From Bacteroidota bacterium (GTDB taxonomy: Bacteria; Bacteroidota; Bacteroidia; B-17B0; Aurantibacillaceae): a stretch of DNA of 64,000 bases. A program made the translations under genes and the position numbers. Location: positions 1-64,000 of the forward strand of contig PLYA01000045.1 of assembly GCA_003153315.1 (NCBI GenBank), given 5' to 3'. This document shows, piece after piece, positions 16,093 to 35,610 of the stretch (its first letter is position 1; every line of letters starts with the position of its first letter). The notes below the pieces were generated by a model. It was given only the letters and a program-made list of their open reading frames with translations. It was not told the DNA's origin and ran no database searches.

Positions 16093-17892
16093 TTAAACTT
16101 TTACTCCTATAATAAGGATATCATCTACCTGTTCTAACTCTCCACGCCAGTTTTCGATGGTGGTGTTTAAGAAGTCTTTCTGTTGTTCTATTGGTTTTTT
16201 ACTGGTTTCTATAAGCAGATTTCTAAAGTTGCCTGTCATGTATTTTTTACCGTTAGGCCCGCCAAACTGGTCGGCATACCCATCACTAAAAATATAGAAG
16301 GTATCTCCTTTTTGCAGTTGAATAACATTATTAGTAAAGTTTTGAATATGGTCATCTATCCTAAACCCGATAGGGAACTTATTGGCTTTATATTGAATCA
16401 GTTTCCCTTCTCGTATTAAATAAAGTGGATTAAAAGCACCAGCGTATTGCAGCTCCATCTTATTATAATCAACACAACACAGGCTCATATCCATACCATC
16501 TTTGGTTTGGTTGGCAGTTTCTGCCTTACCCGATTTTGGGTTTAAAGTTTTTACAACTCCTTTACTCATTTTATCCATAATAATGGAAGGAGCAATGGCT
16601 ACTTCATCATTAAGAGTAATTTCTTTTAAAATATTATAGCCAACTAAACTCATAAATGCACCCGGAACTCCATGCCCCGTACAATCAATAGCCGCCACAT
16701 ACGATTTGTTTTCTATGTGGTTTATCCAATAGAAATCCCCACTTACAATGTCTTTAGGTTTAAATAATACAAACGATTGAGGTAGTATTTGTCTAACGGC
16801 AATATCTGTTGGGATGATAGCTTCTTGCAAGCGTTTGGCATAGCGTATGCTATCTGTAACGTGTTTGTATAATATTTCAAGCTGATTGTTTTTACTTTTA
16901 ATCTCTTCACTTTGTTTTACTACCTGTTCCGTGCGTTCAATTACCTTTTGTTCAAGTACACGCTCATTCTCTGCTAAATCAGTACGCATTTTTAGCAAAG
17001 CATGCCCCAAATTATCTTGTTCGCTAAGTGGTTTGTAATAAGAGTTAAAATTACCGCTACCTACTTCTTTAGCAAACTCTGTAGTAAGTTCCATTGACTG
17101 AACCAAGCCGTTAAGGGCAATATTCATGTCTCCAATTTCATCATTTTTATATTTTATACGGGTTTTTGGCAATACACCAAAGCTCATATCTTGCAGCACA
17201 TTTTTTAATTTCTGCACAGGTTTTACAATAGTTCTTATAGTGAAAAATGCAATTAAAACACCACCTATAACTAAACATATGCCTAAGTACTTTACAAATT
17301 GCATTAAAAAATTAAACGAGGTAAACATTTGATGAGTAACTATATCTGCATTGTTCTTTTCAGAATTAATAAGTGAAGTAAGTCCGTTGTATATAACTTT
17401 TAATTCCTCATCAGCTTCTTCTAAACTTAACTGAACCGGAAAAGTTATAGAAGCATCATCATAAGCCGAAAATGAATTTATCTGACTCATAATATCCTTT
17501 TGATATTTTTCAAAAAGATTATCCGTAAAAGAAAAAATGTTTTTTATTTGTTCTTTTTCATCTGGAGTCCAGTTAACAGAAAGGCTGTCTATTCCCTTTT
17601 TTAATCCGGGGTATTCATATTTAATCAGCTCGCGCAGTTCTTTCTTAAAAGGGTCGTCATTCGGACTTTGTACATGATACCATTTAGTAATTAATATTTG
17701 CGAACGTTGCAAGATAGAATGAAAGGATTCTAAGGAAGTAACACTGGGAGTAACTATCTTTACTACTTCATCAGTTTTCTTTTTACTTTCATTAATAATT
17801 ACATTGGTATATATAAAAGCTATAAGAGTAAATAAAATAACCAAGCCAAAACCCGCGCCTATTTTTTTTCCTATAGTAAATTTAAAAGCCAT
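16093..17892 (-). CDS. Membrane HAMP-SpoIIE (PP2C) serine phosphatase
   Basis: 599 aa. TM1 is at about 10-30, a helical periplasmic sensor region at 31-195, TM2 at about 198-220 (FVKYLGICLVIGGVLIAFFTI), HAMP to about 270, and coiled coil to 345. The SpoIIE domain runs from about 370 to the end: FVLFKPKDIVSGDFYW, AAIDCTGHGVPGAFMS (metal-binding Asp), KDGMDMSLCCVD, DTFYIFSDGYADQFGG and QVDDILIIGVKV. These phosphatases typically act on anti-sigma-factor antagonists. Its start directly abuts the stop of the TPR gene 17893-18783, which follows a YfiR-like gene, so a three-gene signalling operon is likely. Confidence 0.93.
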   Translation of the reverse strand: MAFKFTIGKKIGAGFGLVILFTLIAFIYTNVIINESKKKTDEVVKIVTPSVTSLESFHSILQRSQILITKWYHVQSPNDDPFKKELRELIKYEYPGLKKGIDSLSVNWTPDEKEQIKNIFSFTDNLFEKYQKDIMSQINSFSAYDDASITFPVQLSLEEADEELKVIYNGLTSLINSEKNNADIVTHQMFTSFNFLMQFVKYLGICLVIGGVLIAFFTIRTIVKPVQKLKNVLQDMSFGVLPKTRIKYKNDEIGDMNIALNGLVQSMELTTEFAKEVGSGNFNSYYKPLSEQDNLGHALLKMRTDLAENERVLEQKVIERTEQVVKQSEEIKSKNNQLEILYKHVTDSIRYAKRLQEAIIPTDIAVRQILPQSFVLFKPKDIVSGDFYWINHIENKSYVAAIDCTGHGVPGAFMSLVGYNILKEITLNDEVAIAPSIIMDKMSKGVVKTLNPKSGKAETANQTKDGMDMSLCCVDYNKMELQYAGAFNPLYLIREGKLIQYKANKFPIGFRIDDHIQNFTNNVIQLQKGDTFYIFSDGYADQFGGPNGKKYMTGNFRNLLIETSKKPIEQQKDFLNTTIENWRGELEQVDDILIIGVKV

Positions 17893-18783
17893 TTATTGTT
17901 TGCTCATCTCCTCAAATTTCTTTTTATACTCATTATATTTTTCGGTATCATTAAGCAAGTAATATATTCCGGCAAGCCCTTCAATAACCGATTTATCGTT
18001 TGGATTAATTTCATGAGCTTTTAAAAGATAAGGTAAGGATTGTTTTCCAAGTTTAATAGACTGGTCTTGATAGACGGGTAATTGGTCAAGTGGCACATCA
18101 TAATCCATTTTTTTAATAATATCAACCGCCTGGTTATAATATAAAACACCTAAGTTTTTATTGATAAAATCAGTATTATTATTTATTTCATAAGCTTTCA
18201 GCAGATATGTTTTAGCCATATCAAGCAGGTTTTTGGATGACTTTTGCTCATATCCTTTTTCAAACATAGAACCAATGGCTGAGTATACCTCATAGTTATA
18301 TTTCTTTTCATCAAAGGCAGGGTCAATAAGTTTCATAAGTTCTTTATGTCTATCAGAATTTATAATAGCCTGCTTGTAGCCTACGGTATCAAGTATTTTG
18401 TTTATATCGTTATGGTAAGTTGAAGCTAAATATTTTAAAGACTGAATTAAACTAGCCTTTTGAGGATTTTTATTATCCTTGTCTAATTGTAAAGATTGCA
18501 CAAAAGATTCAGCCGAGCTTTCTCTTAAAGGAGACGCCGGATTTTTACTTTCATTGGCCTTATATAAATCTTTGTATATAAAGCCTCGCACCATCCATGC
18601 CTGAAAATCTTTTGCAGTTTCAGGATTTTGAATAGCTTCATTAATCAAAACCTTAGCAGAATCAAGTTTTTTAGCCTGATATAACTCCGAAGCTTTTTGA
18701 ACCAAATCAGTTTGGGCAAAAGAAACCTGCTTTGCCAGTATAAACAGCAATAAACAAAAAGATATGTTTTTTAATCCTTTCAT
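17893..18783 (-). CDS. Exported TPR-repeat protein
   Basis: 296 aa. N-terminal signal peptide (LKNISFCLLLFILAKQVSFAQ), then TPR-like helices: ASELYQAKKLDSAKVLINEA near residue 35, a YLLKAYEINNNTDFINKNLG unit near 190, and YLLKAHEINPNDKSVIEGLAG near 255. It likely sits in the periplasm as a scaffold. It lies with no gap between the YfiR-like gene and the HAMP-SpoIIE phosphatase gene; that arrangement suggests it links a periplasmic signal to the phosphatase's sensor domain. Function inferred from context. Confidence 0.85.
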   Translation of the reverse strand: MKGLKNISFCLLLFILAKQVSFAQTDLVQKASELYQAKKLDSAKVLINEAIQNPETAKDFQAWMVRGFIYKDLYKANESKNPASPLRESSAESFVQSLQLDKDNKNPQKASLIQSLKYLASTYHNDINKILDTVGYKQAIINSDRHKELMKLIDPAFDEKKYNYEVYSAIGSMFEKGYEQKSSKNLLDMAKTYLLKAYEINNNTDFINKNLGVLYYNQAVDIIKKMDYDVPLDQLPVYQDQSIKLGKQSLPYLLKAHEINPNDKSVIEGLAGIYYLLNDTEKYNEYKKKFEEMSKQ

Positions 18784-20491: not shown

Positions 20492-21220
20492 CTATGTAAT
20501 AATACAAAAAAACACAGGGCTCCAGCTATGTATTACCCCACGGGTATCTACCCAGGCGGCAAAGCCCCATAGTTTTTGTCCGGCTGTTTCTCTGCTTACA
20601 TCTTTAGTGAAGGGAGATTTTTGCGCCTCTATGTGTTTGTTGCAAGCCTCCTCTCCGGTAGGAGCAGCAGCGTTGGCAGCCGTAATAATATACTGTATTA
20701 AAATATGGTGCATGCCTGCTTCTACGCCCTGCGATTTGCTGCCCAACGCACCAAAACTAAAGGTTACTGTGCCCGGACTGTTAGATTTTGCCGCTATAGC
20801 CGGATAGTCAGGCACTTCACGCTCTACTATAGAAGTTTGCGTGCTATGCTTACCTGTTCCTGTGTTTGCGGTAATAGGCAAACCAATTAGTTGTTTTTGA
20901 TAATCGCTAAGGGCATCATTATTACGTATGTATTGGGCTGTAATTTGCTGTATTCCGCTTTTAAAAAGCTTTTCTGCTTTGTTGCGTGCCGTAATGAATG
21001 CCCTGCCGGGGTATGTATGCGGAGGTGCTGCATTATATGCCGACACATAAGCAGCTTGCAAAGCCAGCAATGCCTCCATTTTACTACCCACGCCCGTAGG
21101 TATGCCTGTTAAAGGACCAATTACAGAGTCTTGTACCTCCGTCATAAAGGTTTCCTGCCATAAGTAGAACCGAAGTAGCTGCATCGGAATCCAATACACT
21201 CTTTTCTTTTTTGTTTTCAT
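20492..21220 (-). CDS. Conserved-type hypothetical protein
   Basis: 242 aa, no signal peptide. N-terminus MKTKKKRVYWIPMQ, then helical segments rich in alanine (LLALQAAYVSAYNAAPPH, AEKLFKSGIQQITAQYIRNN), a G-rich linker (LPITANTGTGKHS), a beta region (GTVTFSFGALGSKSQG) and a C-terminal GFAAWVDTRGVIHSWSPV end. The layout (helical bundle then strands ending in a tryptophan-rich motif) is familiar from uncharacterised Bacteroidota proteins, but I cannot assign a role. An array of 21-bp palindromic repeats lies 30-214 bp upstream of its start and may control it. Confidence 0.7.
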   Translation of the reverse strand: MKTKKKRVYWIPMQLLRFYLWQETFMTEVQDSVIGPLTGIPTGVGSKMEALLALQAAYVSAYNAAPPHTYPGRAFITARNKAEKLFKSGIQQITAQYIRNNDALSDYQKQLIGLPITANTGTGKHSTQTSIVEREVPDYPAIAAKSNSPGTVTFSFGALGSKSQGVEAGMHHILIQYIITAANAAAPTGEEACNKHIEAQKSPFTKDVSRETAGQKLWGFAAWVDTRGVIHSWSPVFFCIIT

Positions 21221-21250
21221 GGTTATATATTTTTATTAGTTAATAATCCT

Positions 21251-21434
21251 GTTTAGTTATTCGGGTAATCGAGTTAGTTATCATGATAAGCAAGTTCATT
21301 ATCAGGGTAACTAAGTTCATTATCTTGATAAGTAAGTCTGTTATCAAGGTAATTAAGTTCCTTATCCGGATAACTAAGTTCATTAGCATGGTAACTAAGT
21401 TTGTTATCAGGATAAGAGAGTTCCTTATCCGTTG
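21251..21434. repeat. 21-bp tandem array of TTATCnnGRTAA palindromes (8.7 copies)
   Basis: Units start at 21251, 21272, 21293, 21314, 21335, 21356, 21377, 21398 and 21419 (partial). Even units (2, 4, 6, 8) contain the perfect 12-bp palindrome TTATCnnGATAA (21278-21289, 21320-21331, 21362-21373, 21404-21415). Odd units carry GGTAA instead of GATAA, so the higher-order period is 42 bp. Because 21 is a multiple of 3, both strands are open and read as heptads, but there are no proper starts or family features. The array sits just upstream of the gene at 20492-21220. Confidence 0.88.
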
Positions 21435-21597
21435 TTTTTTTTTCAAAGAGCCTTTTTCTACTTGTTTGCCATAGCTAAGTTACCTAAACATGGGCTATTA
21501 ACCAAGGAATGCAAGGTATTTAGTTACTAACTACGGTTAATACTTTGCATTAGGAAATGTGGGGTTTTCGTTTATATTATAGGGACGGAGGTTTTTG

Positions 21598-21605
21598 TAT
21601 ATTTG
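21598..21605 (+). promoter_or_regulatory. TAnnTTTG promoter element (TATATTTG)
   Basis: It matches the Bacteroidota primary sigma -7 consensus. Only 4 bp separate it from the GTG start at 21610, so the transcript would begin at or within a few bases of the start codon. Confidence 0.55.
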
Positions 21606-21609
21606 AGGG

Positions 21610-22278
21610 GTGAAAAAGGTTACTCCTATATTATTTCTTCTTCTATCATTCTCTGCTTTCGCACAAAAGACTGATAGTACCAAAAAGCAGTTAGGCTTGG
21701 TTGTTAAGGGAGATATTTTAATGCCCATTTATTCTTTAGTGAATACTGACCATTATAAAATACACTCATTTACAGTAGAAAAATTGTTTAGTAAGAGGCA
21801 TAGTTTGCAATTAACCGTTTTATCACTTACTCAAAATACTAAATCAGTAAAGGAGTATAATAATATAACAAATACTAATCAGATGAATTTTAGTTCTCTG
21901 GCAATAATTCCTGAATATAAATTCTTTGTCTCTAAAAAGAAGAACCATACCGGATATTATGTTGGGGCTTTTGCCCAATATCTTTATGATATAGGGAAGA
22001 TTGCAAGCACTCAATTTATACCTGCTGGATATAGTTTTCCTTATTATCCTAATACTCCGGCAGTAACTTATTATGATAATACGGAGATTATTTATCAACG
22101 CCTTGCAATAGGTTTAATGAATGGCATCCAATATTATTTATTTAACCACCTTGTTATAGATTGTCTTGTTGGAATAGGTCCAGTCGGCACAATTGTTCAA
22201 AAGGGTTCAGGTACTCCTAATACCTATATAGACCCATTAGTTCCAAGAGCAGCCATAAATATTGGCTATAAGTTTTAA
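21610..22278 (+). CDS. Outer-membrane beta-barrel protein
   Basis: 222 aa from a GTG start at 21610; no upstream ATG fits and the signal peptide (KKVTPILFLLLSFSAFAQ) begins directly there. The mature part is made of alternating amphipathic strands (LGLVVKGDILMPIYSL, HSLQLTVLSLTQN, GYYVGAFAQYLYDIGK, AIGLMNGIQYYLFNHLVIDC) and ends RAAINIGYKF, a terminal phenylalanine typical of Bam-assembled barrels. The size fits an 8-stranded porin-like protein. No specific substrate or family can be named. Confidence 0.82.
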   Translation: MKKVTPILFLLLSFSAFAQKTDSTKKQLGLVVKGDILMPIYSLVNTDHYKIHSFTVEKLFSKRHSLQLTVLSLTQNTKSVKEYNNITNTNQMNFSSLAIIPEYKFFVSKKKNHTGYYVGAFAQYLYDIGKIASTQFIPAGYSFPYYPNTPAVTYYDNTEIIYQRLAIGLMNGIQYYLFNHLVIDCLVGIGPVGTIVQKGSGTPNTYIDPLVPRAAINIGYKF

Positions 22279-22280
22279 GC

Positions 22281-22373
22281 CCGCTCGCGTTAGGGATTGC
22301 AACGAAAATCCTTTTGTTGTAATCGGCAAAAGATTGCAGTGCAAAGCCCGCCGTTGTAATCAACGGAACGCCC
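22281..22373 (-). repeat. Interspersed palindromic element (GGGCGTTCC family)
   Basis: Read on the minus strand it opens GGGCGTTCCGTTGATTACAA, contains GGCGGGCTTTGCACTGCAATC and ends in ATCCCTAACGCGAGCGGG. An internal hairpin pairs AATC.TTTT with AAAA.GATT around TTGTTGTAATCGGC. A second, rearranged member is at 25287-25593. From memory, elements with these words are common between Bacteroidota genes; whether this copy is a terminator for the convergent genes on each side (both stop within 3 bp of it) is an inference. Confidence 0.6.
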
Positions 22374-23644: not shown

Positions 23645-24009
23645 GGGCCCGACCGGTTTTGACAGCGAGAGCAGTAGGATTGTAAGCACGTGGTGTGTTG
23701 TGAACATGACACCTAAAACCTAATTCTCAAAACTTCAATTGGCGAAAATAACTACGCCATGGCTGCTTAATTAGCTCAGCTAATTCAGCCTTTGCAACCC
23801 CATTAGCGCCCTTGCTTAGCGAGTGGGATGTTGCATCATAAAATAGCAAGTTGTTTTAGTGATGTTGTTAACTAAAGCAATATCAGCAACTAAGCTTTTG
23901 GTTGGTTTGTGTAAATACCTGCCATTTGACGAAAATTAAATTTGCGCTAAACGTGTAGAAAGCTTTTTTATTCCTTGTTTGGACGAGGGTTCGAATCCCT
24001 CCGGGTCCA
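23645..24009 (+). ncRNA. ssrA: Transfer-messenger RNA (tmRNA)
   Basis: The 5' end GGGCCCGACCGGTTTTGACAG and the 3' end GGTTCGAATCCCTCCGGGTCC are the tmRNA tRNA-like domain. GGGCCCG (23645-23651) pairs fully with CGGGTCC (24002-24008), including one G-U. The discriminator A is at 24009 and the CCA is not encoded. The tag frame GGC GAA AAT AAC TAC GCC ATG GCT GCT TAA at 23741-23770 gives GENNYAMAA. It rescues stalled ribosomes by trans-translation with SmpB. Pseudoknot regions lie in 23771-23960. The 365-nt length is normal. Confidence 0.96.
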
Positions 24010-24011
24010 CA

Positions 24012-24051
24012 AATTGTGCTATAATACAATTTATTGTGTTGTAGCACAATT
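24012..24051 (+). terminator. Hairpin terminator after tmRNA
   Basis: AATTGTGCT (24012-24020) pairs with AGCACAATT (24043-24051), with further pairing of AATACAA against TTGTGTT inside. A T-rich tail (TCCTTTCTTGTTT) follows. Beyond it, 24052-24316 holds nothing I can identify. Confidence 0.7.
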
Positions 24052-25286: not shown

Positions 25287-25593
25287 GGGCGTTCCCCCGC
25301 CGCGTATCAACTCGAACATTGAGCCTGTCGAAAGGTGAAGAAGGCGGGTCGGGCTTCCCTTTCCAAAGACATAACTATCGACGAAACCCCTATAATAATC
25401 GTCCGTTTGCGTTCCGTCTCTTCGGTATTGCATCCCGTTCCTTTTGTATTGCATTCCGTTCCTTTTGTATTGCTTTCCGCCTTTTGGGTATTGCTTCCCG
25501 CTCCTTCAGTATTACGTTCCGTTCAAAAGGCGTTGCTTGCCGTCTAATAGGTATTGTGTTTTAACAAAGCGGCAGTTCACCGCCGGAACGCCC
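25287..25593. repeat. Inverted-repeat-bounded element enclosing a second 21-bp tandem array
   Basis: GGGCGTTCC (25287-25295) and GGAACGCCC (25585-25593) form 9-bp inverted ends, the same word that opens the element at 22281-22373. Next to the left end is ACTCGAACATTGAGCCTGTC and GGGTCGGGCTTCCC. The core is a 21-bp tandem array at 25404-25571. Units such as GTATTGCATCCCGTTCCTTTT start at 25425, 25446, 25467, 25488, 25509, 25530 and 25551, with a degenerate one at 25404. The plus strand is open as heptads (for example ASRSFCIAFRSFCIAF), but no gene features support translation. Confidence 0.8.
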
Positions 25594-33489: not shown

Positions 33490-35610
33490 ATGAAGAAGCT
33501 ATTTATTCTTTTCCTTTTTTTAATTACAAATATTGCGCAACAATCTTATGCCCAACAAAACAAAATAGACTCTCTTCTTACCCTTATAAAAACAGATAAA
33601 GAAGATACCAACAAAGTAAAGCACCTATACCAACTTAGCGAAGAATCGACGGATAATAAGGATGTGATGAACTATGCGCAGCAAGCCCTTTTGCTTGCCG
33701 AAAAACTGAATTATAAAAAGGGCATTGCCAATGCTGCCAATAACATAGGTTTTGTATTTAATGCTGAAGGACAAATAAAAGAGGCATTAGACTACCTTCA
33801 CCGCGCTTTAAAGATACAGGAAGAAATAAACGATAAGCTCGGCATTGCCAACTCGCTGAACAACATAGGGGGTATCTTTAATTCTCAAGGACAAATCAAA
33901 GAGGCGCTTGATTATTATCACCGCTCTTTAAAGCTGCGCGAAGAAATAAACGATAAGCTTGGCATTGCCAACTCGCTGAACAATATAGCAGTGATATACG
34001 AAATTCAAGGGCAAAAAAAAGAGGCCCTCGATTATTTTCAGCGCGCTTTAAAGCTCTACGAAGAAATAAATGATAAGCTCGGCATTGCCTACGCGCTGAA
34101 CAACATAGCTGGGATATTCCAAAATCAAGGACAAAGCAAGGAGGCACTTGATTATTATGACCGCGCTTTAAAACTCCAAGAAGAAATAAATGATAAGCTC
34201 GGTATTGCCAGCTCGTTGAACGGCATAAGTATGGTCTTCTATAATCAAGGGCGGATTAAAGAGGCGCTTGATTATTCTCATCGCGCTTTAAAGCTCCGAG
34301 AAGAAATAAACGATAAGCTTGGCATTCCCAGTTCCCTGCACAATATAGGGGATATATATTTTAAACAAAAGAAGTACGCCCTTGCACTAACTTATGCCGA
34401 TAGTGCTTTGCAAATAGCCCAAGCTATGGGCTATCCTGAAGACACACGCAATGCGGCAGAGTTGCTATGCCGGGTTTACAAAGCACAAAAACAATGGCAA
34501 TCTGCTTTGCGTATGAACGAGCTATATATTACCATGCGCGATAGCGTTGCCAATGCCGAAACAAAAAAGGCAAGCATACGCAAACAAATGGGTTATGAGT
34601 ATGAGAAAAAAGCTGCCGCCAGCAAAGCCGAACAGGATAAACTGGATGCCATTGCCGCAGAAGAAAAACAAAAACAACGCATTGCCCTTATACTTGTTGC
34701 TATTGTTTTGCTTTTGGTAGCCGTGTTTGCTGTATTTATGTACCGCAGGTTTAAAATAACCCAAAAGCAAAAACATATTATAGAGCTACAAAAAGAAGAA
34801 GCAACTCGCCAAAAAACCATTGTAGAGGAACAAAAACATTTGGTAGAAGAACACCAGAAAGAAATTATAGACAGTATAAATTATGCAGAGCGCATACAAC
34901 GCAGTTTTATTGCCACCAAAGAAATATTAAACGAGAACCTGAACGATTACTTTGTTCTTTTTAAACCCAAAGATATTGTAAGCGGAGATTTTTATTGGGC
35001 AAGTAAACTAAACAACGGCAATTTTGCTTTGGCTACTGCCGATAGCACAGGGCATGGTGTGCCAGGTGCTATTATGAGTTTATTGAATGTTACCAGTTTA
35101 GAAAAAGCCGTTGAAACCCACACCCAACCGGCTGATATATTAAACGCTACCCGCAAAATAATTATAGAACGCTTAAAGAAAGATGGCAGCGCGGAAGGTG
35201 GTAAAGATGGTATGGATGCCAGCCTAACTGTATATAATTTTAAAACCAATAAATTAAGTATAGCAGCAGCCAACAACCCCGTTTGGATTATAAGAGGAAC
35301 TGAAACGATAGAAATTAAACCTGATAAAATGCCTGTGGGTAAGCACGATAAACAGGTTATTTCTTTTACTCAGCAAGAGATAGATTTACAGATAGGTGAT
35401 GTGGTTTATACTCTTACGGATGGTTTCCCCGACCAGTTTGGCGGAGAAAAGGGTAAAAAGTTTATGAGCAAAAACCTGAGGGAACTATTGACTGCTAATG
35501 CCCATTTACCTATGCCCGAACAAAAAGCCTTATTAGAAACCACCTTTAAAAACTGGGTAGGTAATTTAGAGCAGGTAGATGATGTAACTTTAATTGGAGT
35601 AAGAGTTTAG
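33490..35610 (+). CDS. TPR-repeat SpoIIE (PP2C) serine phosphatase
   Basis: 706 aa. Signal peptide MKKLFILFLFLITNIAQQSY; then a TPR array from about 40 to 330 with 40-residue units of the form EALDYyhRALKLrEEINDKL; a transmembrane helix near 398-417 (LILVAIVLLLVAVFAVFMY); coiled coil; the DSINYAERIQRSF linker; and the SpoIIE domain: FVLFKPKDIVSGDFYWAS, ATADSTGHGVPGAIMS, GGKDGMDASLTVYN, DVVYTLTDGFPDQFGGEKG and QVDDVTLIGVRV. The TPRs are periplasmic and the phosphatase cytoplasmic, so it is a one-protein signal transducer. It resembles 16093-17892 in its output domain. Confidence 0.95.
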   Translation: MKKLFILFLFLITNIAQQSYAQQNKIDSLLTLIKTDKEDTNKVKHLYQLSEESTDNKDVMNYAQQALLLAEKLNYKKGIANAANNIGFVFNAEGQIKEALDYLHRALKIQEEINDKLGIANSLNNIGGIFNSQGQIKEALDYYHRSLKLREEINDKLGIANSLNNIAVIYEIQGQKKEALDYFQRALKLYEEINDKLGIAYALNNIAGIFQNQGQSKEALDYYDRALKLQEEINDKLGIASSLNGISMVFYNQGRIKEALDYSHRALKLREEINDKLGIPSSLHNIGDIYFKQKKYALALTYADSALQIAQAMGYPEDTRNAAELLCRVYKAQKQWQSALRMNELYITMRDSVANAETKKASIRKQMGYEYEKKAAASKAEQDKLDAIAAEEKQKQRIALILVAIVLLLVAVFAVFMYRRFKITQKQKHIIELQKEEATRQKTIVEEQKHLVEEHQKEIIDSINYAERIQRSFIATKEILNENLNDYFVLFKPKDIVSGDFYWASKLNNGNFALATADSTGHGVPGAIMSLLNVTSLEKAVETHTQPADILNATRKIIIERLKKDGSAEGGKDGMDASLTVYNFKTNKLSIAAANNPVWIIRGTETIEIKPDKMPVGKHDKQVISFTQQEIDLQIGDVVYTLTDGFPDQFGGEKGKKFMSKNLRELLTANAHLPMPEQKALLETTFKNWVGNLEQVDDVTLIGVRV
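33781..34380 (+). repeat. Five 120-bp DNA-level tandem repeats inside the phosphatase gene
   Basis: Units begin at 33781, 33901, 34021, 34141 and 34261, exactly 120 bp apart, each starting GAGGC and containing GAAGAAATAAAYGATAAGCT and GGCATTGCC or close variants. The protein units are 40 residues, against 34 for a canonical TPR. Low divergence between units, even at silent sites, points to recent expansion or gene conversion. Confidence 0.9.

Follow-up and report, generated by a model that had tools for sequence, protein, structure and literature searches.

Tandem arrays of 21-bp units make up a class of non-coding intergenic elements in the window genome and its relatives, and the class is almost certainly linked to a family of uncharacterized genes, family-1. 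On the best explanation of the comparisons made here, the arrays would be defined by where they lie and by the register of their units rather than by what the units spell. Conserved non-coding elements are normally recognized by a conserved sequence, whereas here location, period, and symmetry are kept.

The 21-bp array upstream of gene 20492-21220

The window is the whole stretch of DNA that was analyzed, 64,000 nucleotides in length. It contains two 21-bp arrays, the first of which has a family-1 gene on one side and a conserved flank on the other. The features are as follows.

20492-21220, minus strand: 242-aa gene, a member of family-1 (about 230-280 aa, uncharacterized), whose members have a 21-bp array upstream
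21221-21256, minus strand: short leader from the array to the start codon; a similar A-rich AACCAATAAAAA..ATG leader is present in close paralogues
21257-21431, no strand assigned: 21-bp tandem array of eight full units (21257-21424) and a partial unit, TTATCCG (21425-21431)
21432-21610, minus strand: conserved flank on the side of the array away from the gene, containing CTTTGAA...AACAACGG
25407-25553, no strand assigned: second 21-bp array of seven units with a consensus of about TTGCATTCCGTTCCTTTTGTA, unrelated to the first array

The earlier note described nearly nine exact 21-bp units directly upstream of gene 20492-21220, and both parts of this description are confirmed. Eight full units and a partial unit are present, and autocorrelation gives a lag-21 identity of 0.70 over 159 bp, compared to 0.47 for the best of 40 simulated 64-kb sequences and 0.50 or less at the other lags in the window. 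The array is separated from the ATG of the minus-strand gene by 36 bp. The unit consensus, TTATCnnGRTAAnnnAGTTnn, contains the dyad TTATCnnGATAA, which is exact in the four units that start at 21278, 21320, 21362, and 21404. The dyad symmetry of the unit is significant by column permutation (p = 0.002), and the self-folding of the array relative to column-permuted arrays has z-scores of -1.9 on the gene strand and -6.3 on the other strand. Three paralogous loci, C54, C1, and C85, show 80-83% identity in the flank at 21432-21610, which is promoter-like by position only.

The window genome and two sister genomes all have eight units at this locus, and the columns TTATC..GATAA..AGTT are constrained across the three species. 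The G005 orthologue has one 1-bp insertion, seen on inspection by eye. A strict alternation of GATAA and GGTAA units with a resulting 42-bp higher-order period had also been claimed. The alternation is strict at unit position 9 (G,A,G,A,G,A,G,A), which is one of 11 variable columns, but it does not extend to the other 10 columns or to the orthologous arrays in the sister genomes (L065; L159/L268 from G005), which have eight units that do not strictly alternate. The 42-bp period survives as a mild even/odd tendency that is weaker than strict alternation but general across arrays: in 44 of 58 arrays, identity at lag 42 is higher than the average of the identities at lags 21 and 63 (p = 1e-4).

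A dispersed class of arrays linked to family-1 genes

The array in the earlier note is one of many. An autocorrelation scan of 830 kb, about 20% of the 4.14-Mb genome, detected 57 tandem arrays, and the 51 with a period of 21 or 42 bp have unrelated unit sequences. The density of ~1 array per 16 kb extrapolates to about 250 arrays in the whole genome, an assembly with an estimated contamination of 6.2%. All arrays are intergenic by simple ORF calls, and those with both neighbors called lie between divergent (22), co-directional (18), or convergent (6) genes. The second array in the window is flanked by convergent genes encoding a DUF2911/TPR protein and a sodium:solute symporter, and it has one relative at another locus (L056 9640-9941). 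The tmRNA gene (window 23645-24012) is located between the two window arrays. Contigs C25, C49, C19, and C85 begin or end inside 21-bp arrays (L010, L033, L035, and L041), which means that arrays probably break the assembly and are undercounted.

Units are contiguous and all similar within an array, and they differ from array to array. No motif common to the G000 arrays was found; all-pairs unit similarity matches the permuted null apart from a few related groups. The sister genome G005 has the same array density of about 62 per Mb and G006 has one array in 80 kb. No 21-bp array was found in 421 kb from four other genomes of the same genus or in the small samples taken from more distant genomes. 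A search of open-licence papers found no matching description of such arrays.

Searches with the 242-aa gene gave no Pfam match at an E-value of 0.001, no PHROG match at 0.05, and nothing credible in NCBIfam or PDB. Family-1 was also tested for a relationship to partition/iteron-type adaptors or initiators and has no Pfam, PHROG, or credible NCBIfam/PDB match. Single-sequence structure prediction gives a pLDDT of 34, and relatives were not found in the viral contigs or plasmids searched. There are 28 family-1 matches in the window genome, one of which is a short fragment, and 11 in G005. An upstream 21-bp array is present in 27 of the 27 members checked in the window genome (26 found by the scan and C32 recognized by eye across an N gap) and in all six G005 members with upstream sequence; the remaining five G005 matches are fragments or run off their contigs. 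Complete family-1 genes in G039 and G045, which belong to other bacterial families, and in G013, from another genus of the same family, also have upstream arrays. In the family-1 genes checked, the array has a conserved flank on one side and the start codon on the other. The sequences of these arrays are unrelated, and no other 21-bp array was found in the 118 kb read from the three genomes. One G039 case has a small helix-turn-helix-like reading frame between the array and the family-1 gene. G001 has a single family-1 copy, and the array upstream of it is degenerate, with lag 21 and lag 42 as the two highest upstream autocorrelations. Of the 395 genomes sampled from the class, 20 have family-1, and these are distributed over eight of 196 genera.

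The earlier claim that the array is tied to gene 20492-21220 therefore holds for every family-1 member checked, including those in other bacterial families. The earlier note regarded random positions without gene association and varied units as evidence against its reading. This is borne out in part: many arrays are found elsewhere, including between convergent genes, and the unit sequence does vary. Many arrays in the window genome are not next to family-1 genes, and their neighbors include unrelated short proteins with fibronectin-III-like or carboxypeptidase-regulatory-like domains. The association of arrays with these other neighbors is not independent evidence because the profiles were built from array neighbors. 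The multi-copy neighbors (L009, L012, L054, L061, L264, and others) include proteins in which a ~220-aa N-terminal domain without a Pfam match is joined to a carboxypeptidase-regulatory-like domain, as well as fibronectin-III-like proteins that carry 'LTGNxNF' motifs.

Conserved register and replaced sequence

The period is 21 bp whatever the array sequence. Phase segmentation of 74 arrays, using a high switching penalty that can miss single-base shifts, identified five phase switches, several near array edges, among 4556 departures from the column consensus. About 160 switches are expected from the 0.035 gaps per substitution measured in the conserved-flank control. This indel deficit is strong but not pure evidence of selection because unit exchange keeps register and could remove indels. 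In 41% of the arrays the units are more dyad-symmetric than column-permuted controls (p < 0.05), and in most single arrays the symmetry is not significant.

Intrinsic curvature was rejected as the trait under selection, and the arrays are not phased A-tracts. The mean predicted curvature of the arrays is 4.8 degrees per turn compared to 2.6 in a genomic sample (wedge model with the Bolshoy-Trifonov parameter set), and it is at background when the period is set to 20 or 22. The arrays are curved through their period but no more so than column-permuted versions of themselves, so selection for curvature is not visible. A/T periodicity at 10.5 bp is not above chance; the A/T Fourier component at two cycles per unit has a mean p of 0.60.

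Sequence comparisons indicate that location and register are conserved and the array sequence is not. The C103 and C104 genes are 90% identical, as are the 150 bp upstream of their arrays, and the array units are at chance similarity (0.43 versus 0.48 ± 0.05). C104 and C4 are less alike outside the array and have the array in common (0.90). Paralogues that are 80-93% identical often have unrelated arrays. The same replacement is seen between two species at orthologous loci, where 21-bp arrays with unrelated units occupy the same place at a family-1 locus (L017/L252) and 21-bp palindromic arrays with unrelated units occupy the same site at a non-family-1 locus (L062 9226-9432 and L263 7635-7888). 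Related units are kept at other orthologous loci, such as the window locus (z = 7.3) and L063/L180 (z = 3.9). The L063 array at 17891-18135 is absent from G005, and other orthologous loci differ in array length or have one species without an array. Co-evolution of the array sequence with the downstream protein was rejected; the relationship is weak and there are clear counter-examples.

Candidate mechanisms and known repeat systems

On the mechanism we tentatively favor, the DNA upstream of family-1 genes would form a nucleoprotein array that is phase-locked and tolerant of sequence. Selection would maintain a run of roughly eight or more dyad units at a spacing of exactly two helical turns, so that each unit would face the same side of the DNA. 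This face could be occupied by stacked copies of a dimeric DNA-binding protein that tolerates sequence differences, or by a set of proteins each specific to its array, and the assembled nucleoprotein, or the curvature given free by phasing, would determine how the downstream gene is expressed. The array sequence would be renewed by unequal exchange or by wholesale replacement, with the register left intact. This mechanism starts from what is observed of the arrays, namely where they lie, their register, their excess of dyads, their non-coding nature, and the replacement of their sequence, and extends it to putative protein binding and expression control. It is possible, with somewhat more reserve, that the arrays are a cis-element defined by geometry alone, in which a 21-bp dyad register at fixed positions is kept across several families and its sequence is repeatedly replaced. 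Such an element would imply machinery that reads register and tolerates sequence, and a process that installs or rewrites arrays. Because the array sequence is free, similarity searches would miss the class, which is visible by lag-21 autocorrelation. The linkage connects an uncharacterized protein family to a specific DNA architecture, and more than 70 natural sequence variants on one helical period could serve to ask which properties of DNA, other than its base sequence, a cell reads.

The main rival is a neutral or selfish minisatellite, in which an ancestral 21-bp array spread by gene duplication and dispersal, the common period is a functionless frozen accident, and unequal exchange between units preserves the register for ever. 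This explanation is rather unlikely, and several observations are consistent with it. Higher-order duplications of two and three units occur (L010, L047, and L283), and the 63-bp higher-order repeat at L283 2230-2497 (G039), which is nearly perfect and built of three different 21-bp units, points to segmental duplication of unit blocks. End units are degraded in L015 and L050, the L063 array is present or absent depending on the species, and two genomes have about 62 arrays per Mb compared to none in the 421 kb from four genomes of the same genus. However, under neutral descent the similarity of two arrays should be close to that of their 90%-identical flanks, and some arrays are at chance. 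Neutral descent also does not predict the dyad enrichment, and the position upstream of family-1 genes is kept across bacterial families. Bacterial minisatellites/VNTRs are head-to-tail tandem units of about 10-100 bp, which describes the 21-bp arrays, and the two are further alike in being intergenic, homogenized within an array, and located upstream of multigene-family members. The arrays differ in having one fixed period over unrelated sequences, dyad enrichment, eight units in three species at the window locus, and wholesale replacement between conserved flanks. Promoter-region repeats that tune surface genes are exemplified by the 7-bp repeats of Haemophilus influenzae hmw.

Satellite DNA under concerted evolution resembles the arrays in the homogenization of units within arrays, their divergence between arrays, and the presence of higher-order repeats. 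The arrays differ from it in having about 8-20 units, a bacterial chromosomal setting, and conserved positions upstream of one gene family.

It is unlikely that the array is an operator through which a cooperative, sequence-specific regulator controls gene 20492-21220. The constrained columns TTATC..GATAA..AGTT in three species, the exact spacing, and the location just upstream of the gene fit an operator, and the helical phasing of dyad sites expected of one was found (period 21, few indels, and dyad excess). Arguing against it are paralogues with 80-84% protein identity and unrelated arrays, and the lack of a motif common beyond chance among the G000 arrays. The specific TTATCnnGATAA-reading protein that the earlier note proposed as controlling family-1 is contradicted by the unrelated arrays at close paralogues with conserved flanks and by the lack of a motif across arrays. 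Known parallels include plasmid iterons and partition centromeres (ParR, omega, or RepA sites), which have one sequence per system and a known DNA-binding protein. They are like the arrays in consisting of direct repeats at helical spacing beside a gene; in contrast, family-1 has no match to such proteins and close paralogues have no common array sequence.

A transcribed leader, in which the array is a repetitive or structured 5' untranslated region that controls mRNA translation or stability, is quite improbable. The array sits between a promoter-like flank and the ATG, and its self-complementarity exceeds column-permuted controls. The self-folding energy, however, exceeds the controls on both strands (mean z of -2.0 on the gene strand and -2.5 on the other), and the strand difference is not significant (p = 0.15), so RNA-strand-specific structure was rejected. 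An excess on both strands without a strand difference points to DNA rather than RNA and fits dimer binding. Arrays also occur downstream of and between genes, and A-form RNA has ~11 bp per turn.

The arrays are non-coding, and a heptapeptide-repeat protein can be dismissed: 21 bp is seven codons and several arrays have open frames, but open frames are at expectation (76 observed versus 71.9 ± 7.1), codon periodicity of variation is found in 0 of 51 arrays at p < 0.05, and none of the frames that stay open through the whole window array is organized as a gene. Tempting single open frames do exist, for example on both strands of the window array.

CRISPR arrays, which are likewise regular arrays in intergenic DNA, were rejected because the 21-bp units are contiguous and similar, with no repeat/spacer division and no unique spacers. 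The TAACTGA heptamer repeats found in Beggiatoaceae, Cyanobacteria, and some Bacteroidetes are similar in that they form numerous sets of direct repeats in intergenic DNA, frequently a short way ahead of a start codon, and are patchily distributed (PMC4679880). That system uses one fixed sequence, and related heptamers seldom occur as repeats (PMC4679880). The 21-bp arrays instead have a fixed period over free sequence; they do not have the one fixed repeat sequence of the TAACTGA type, and this assignment was rejected.

Other repeats and RNA elements were observed in the same sequences. Positions 22274-22357 of the window match the Rfam Flavo-1 RNA, and a GCGTTAGGGATTG-type sequence resembling Flavo-1 recurs right beside several 21-bp arrays (L052, L053, and L055; L164 in G005). 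A ~90-bp dispersed repeat at L063 8908-8999 has dozens of copies in the related genomes G001 and G005. A 120-bp tandem repeat of about five copies at window 33767-34351 is apparently TPR coding sequence.
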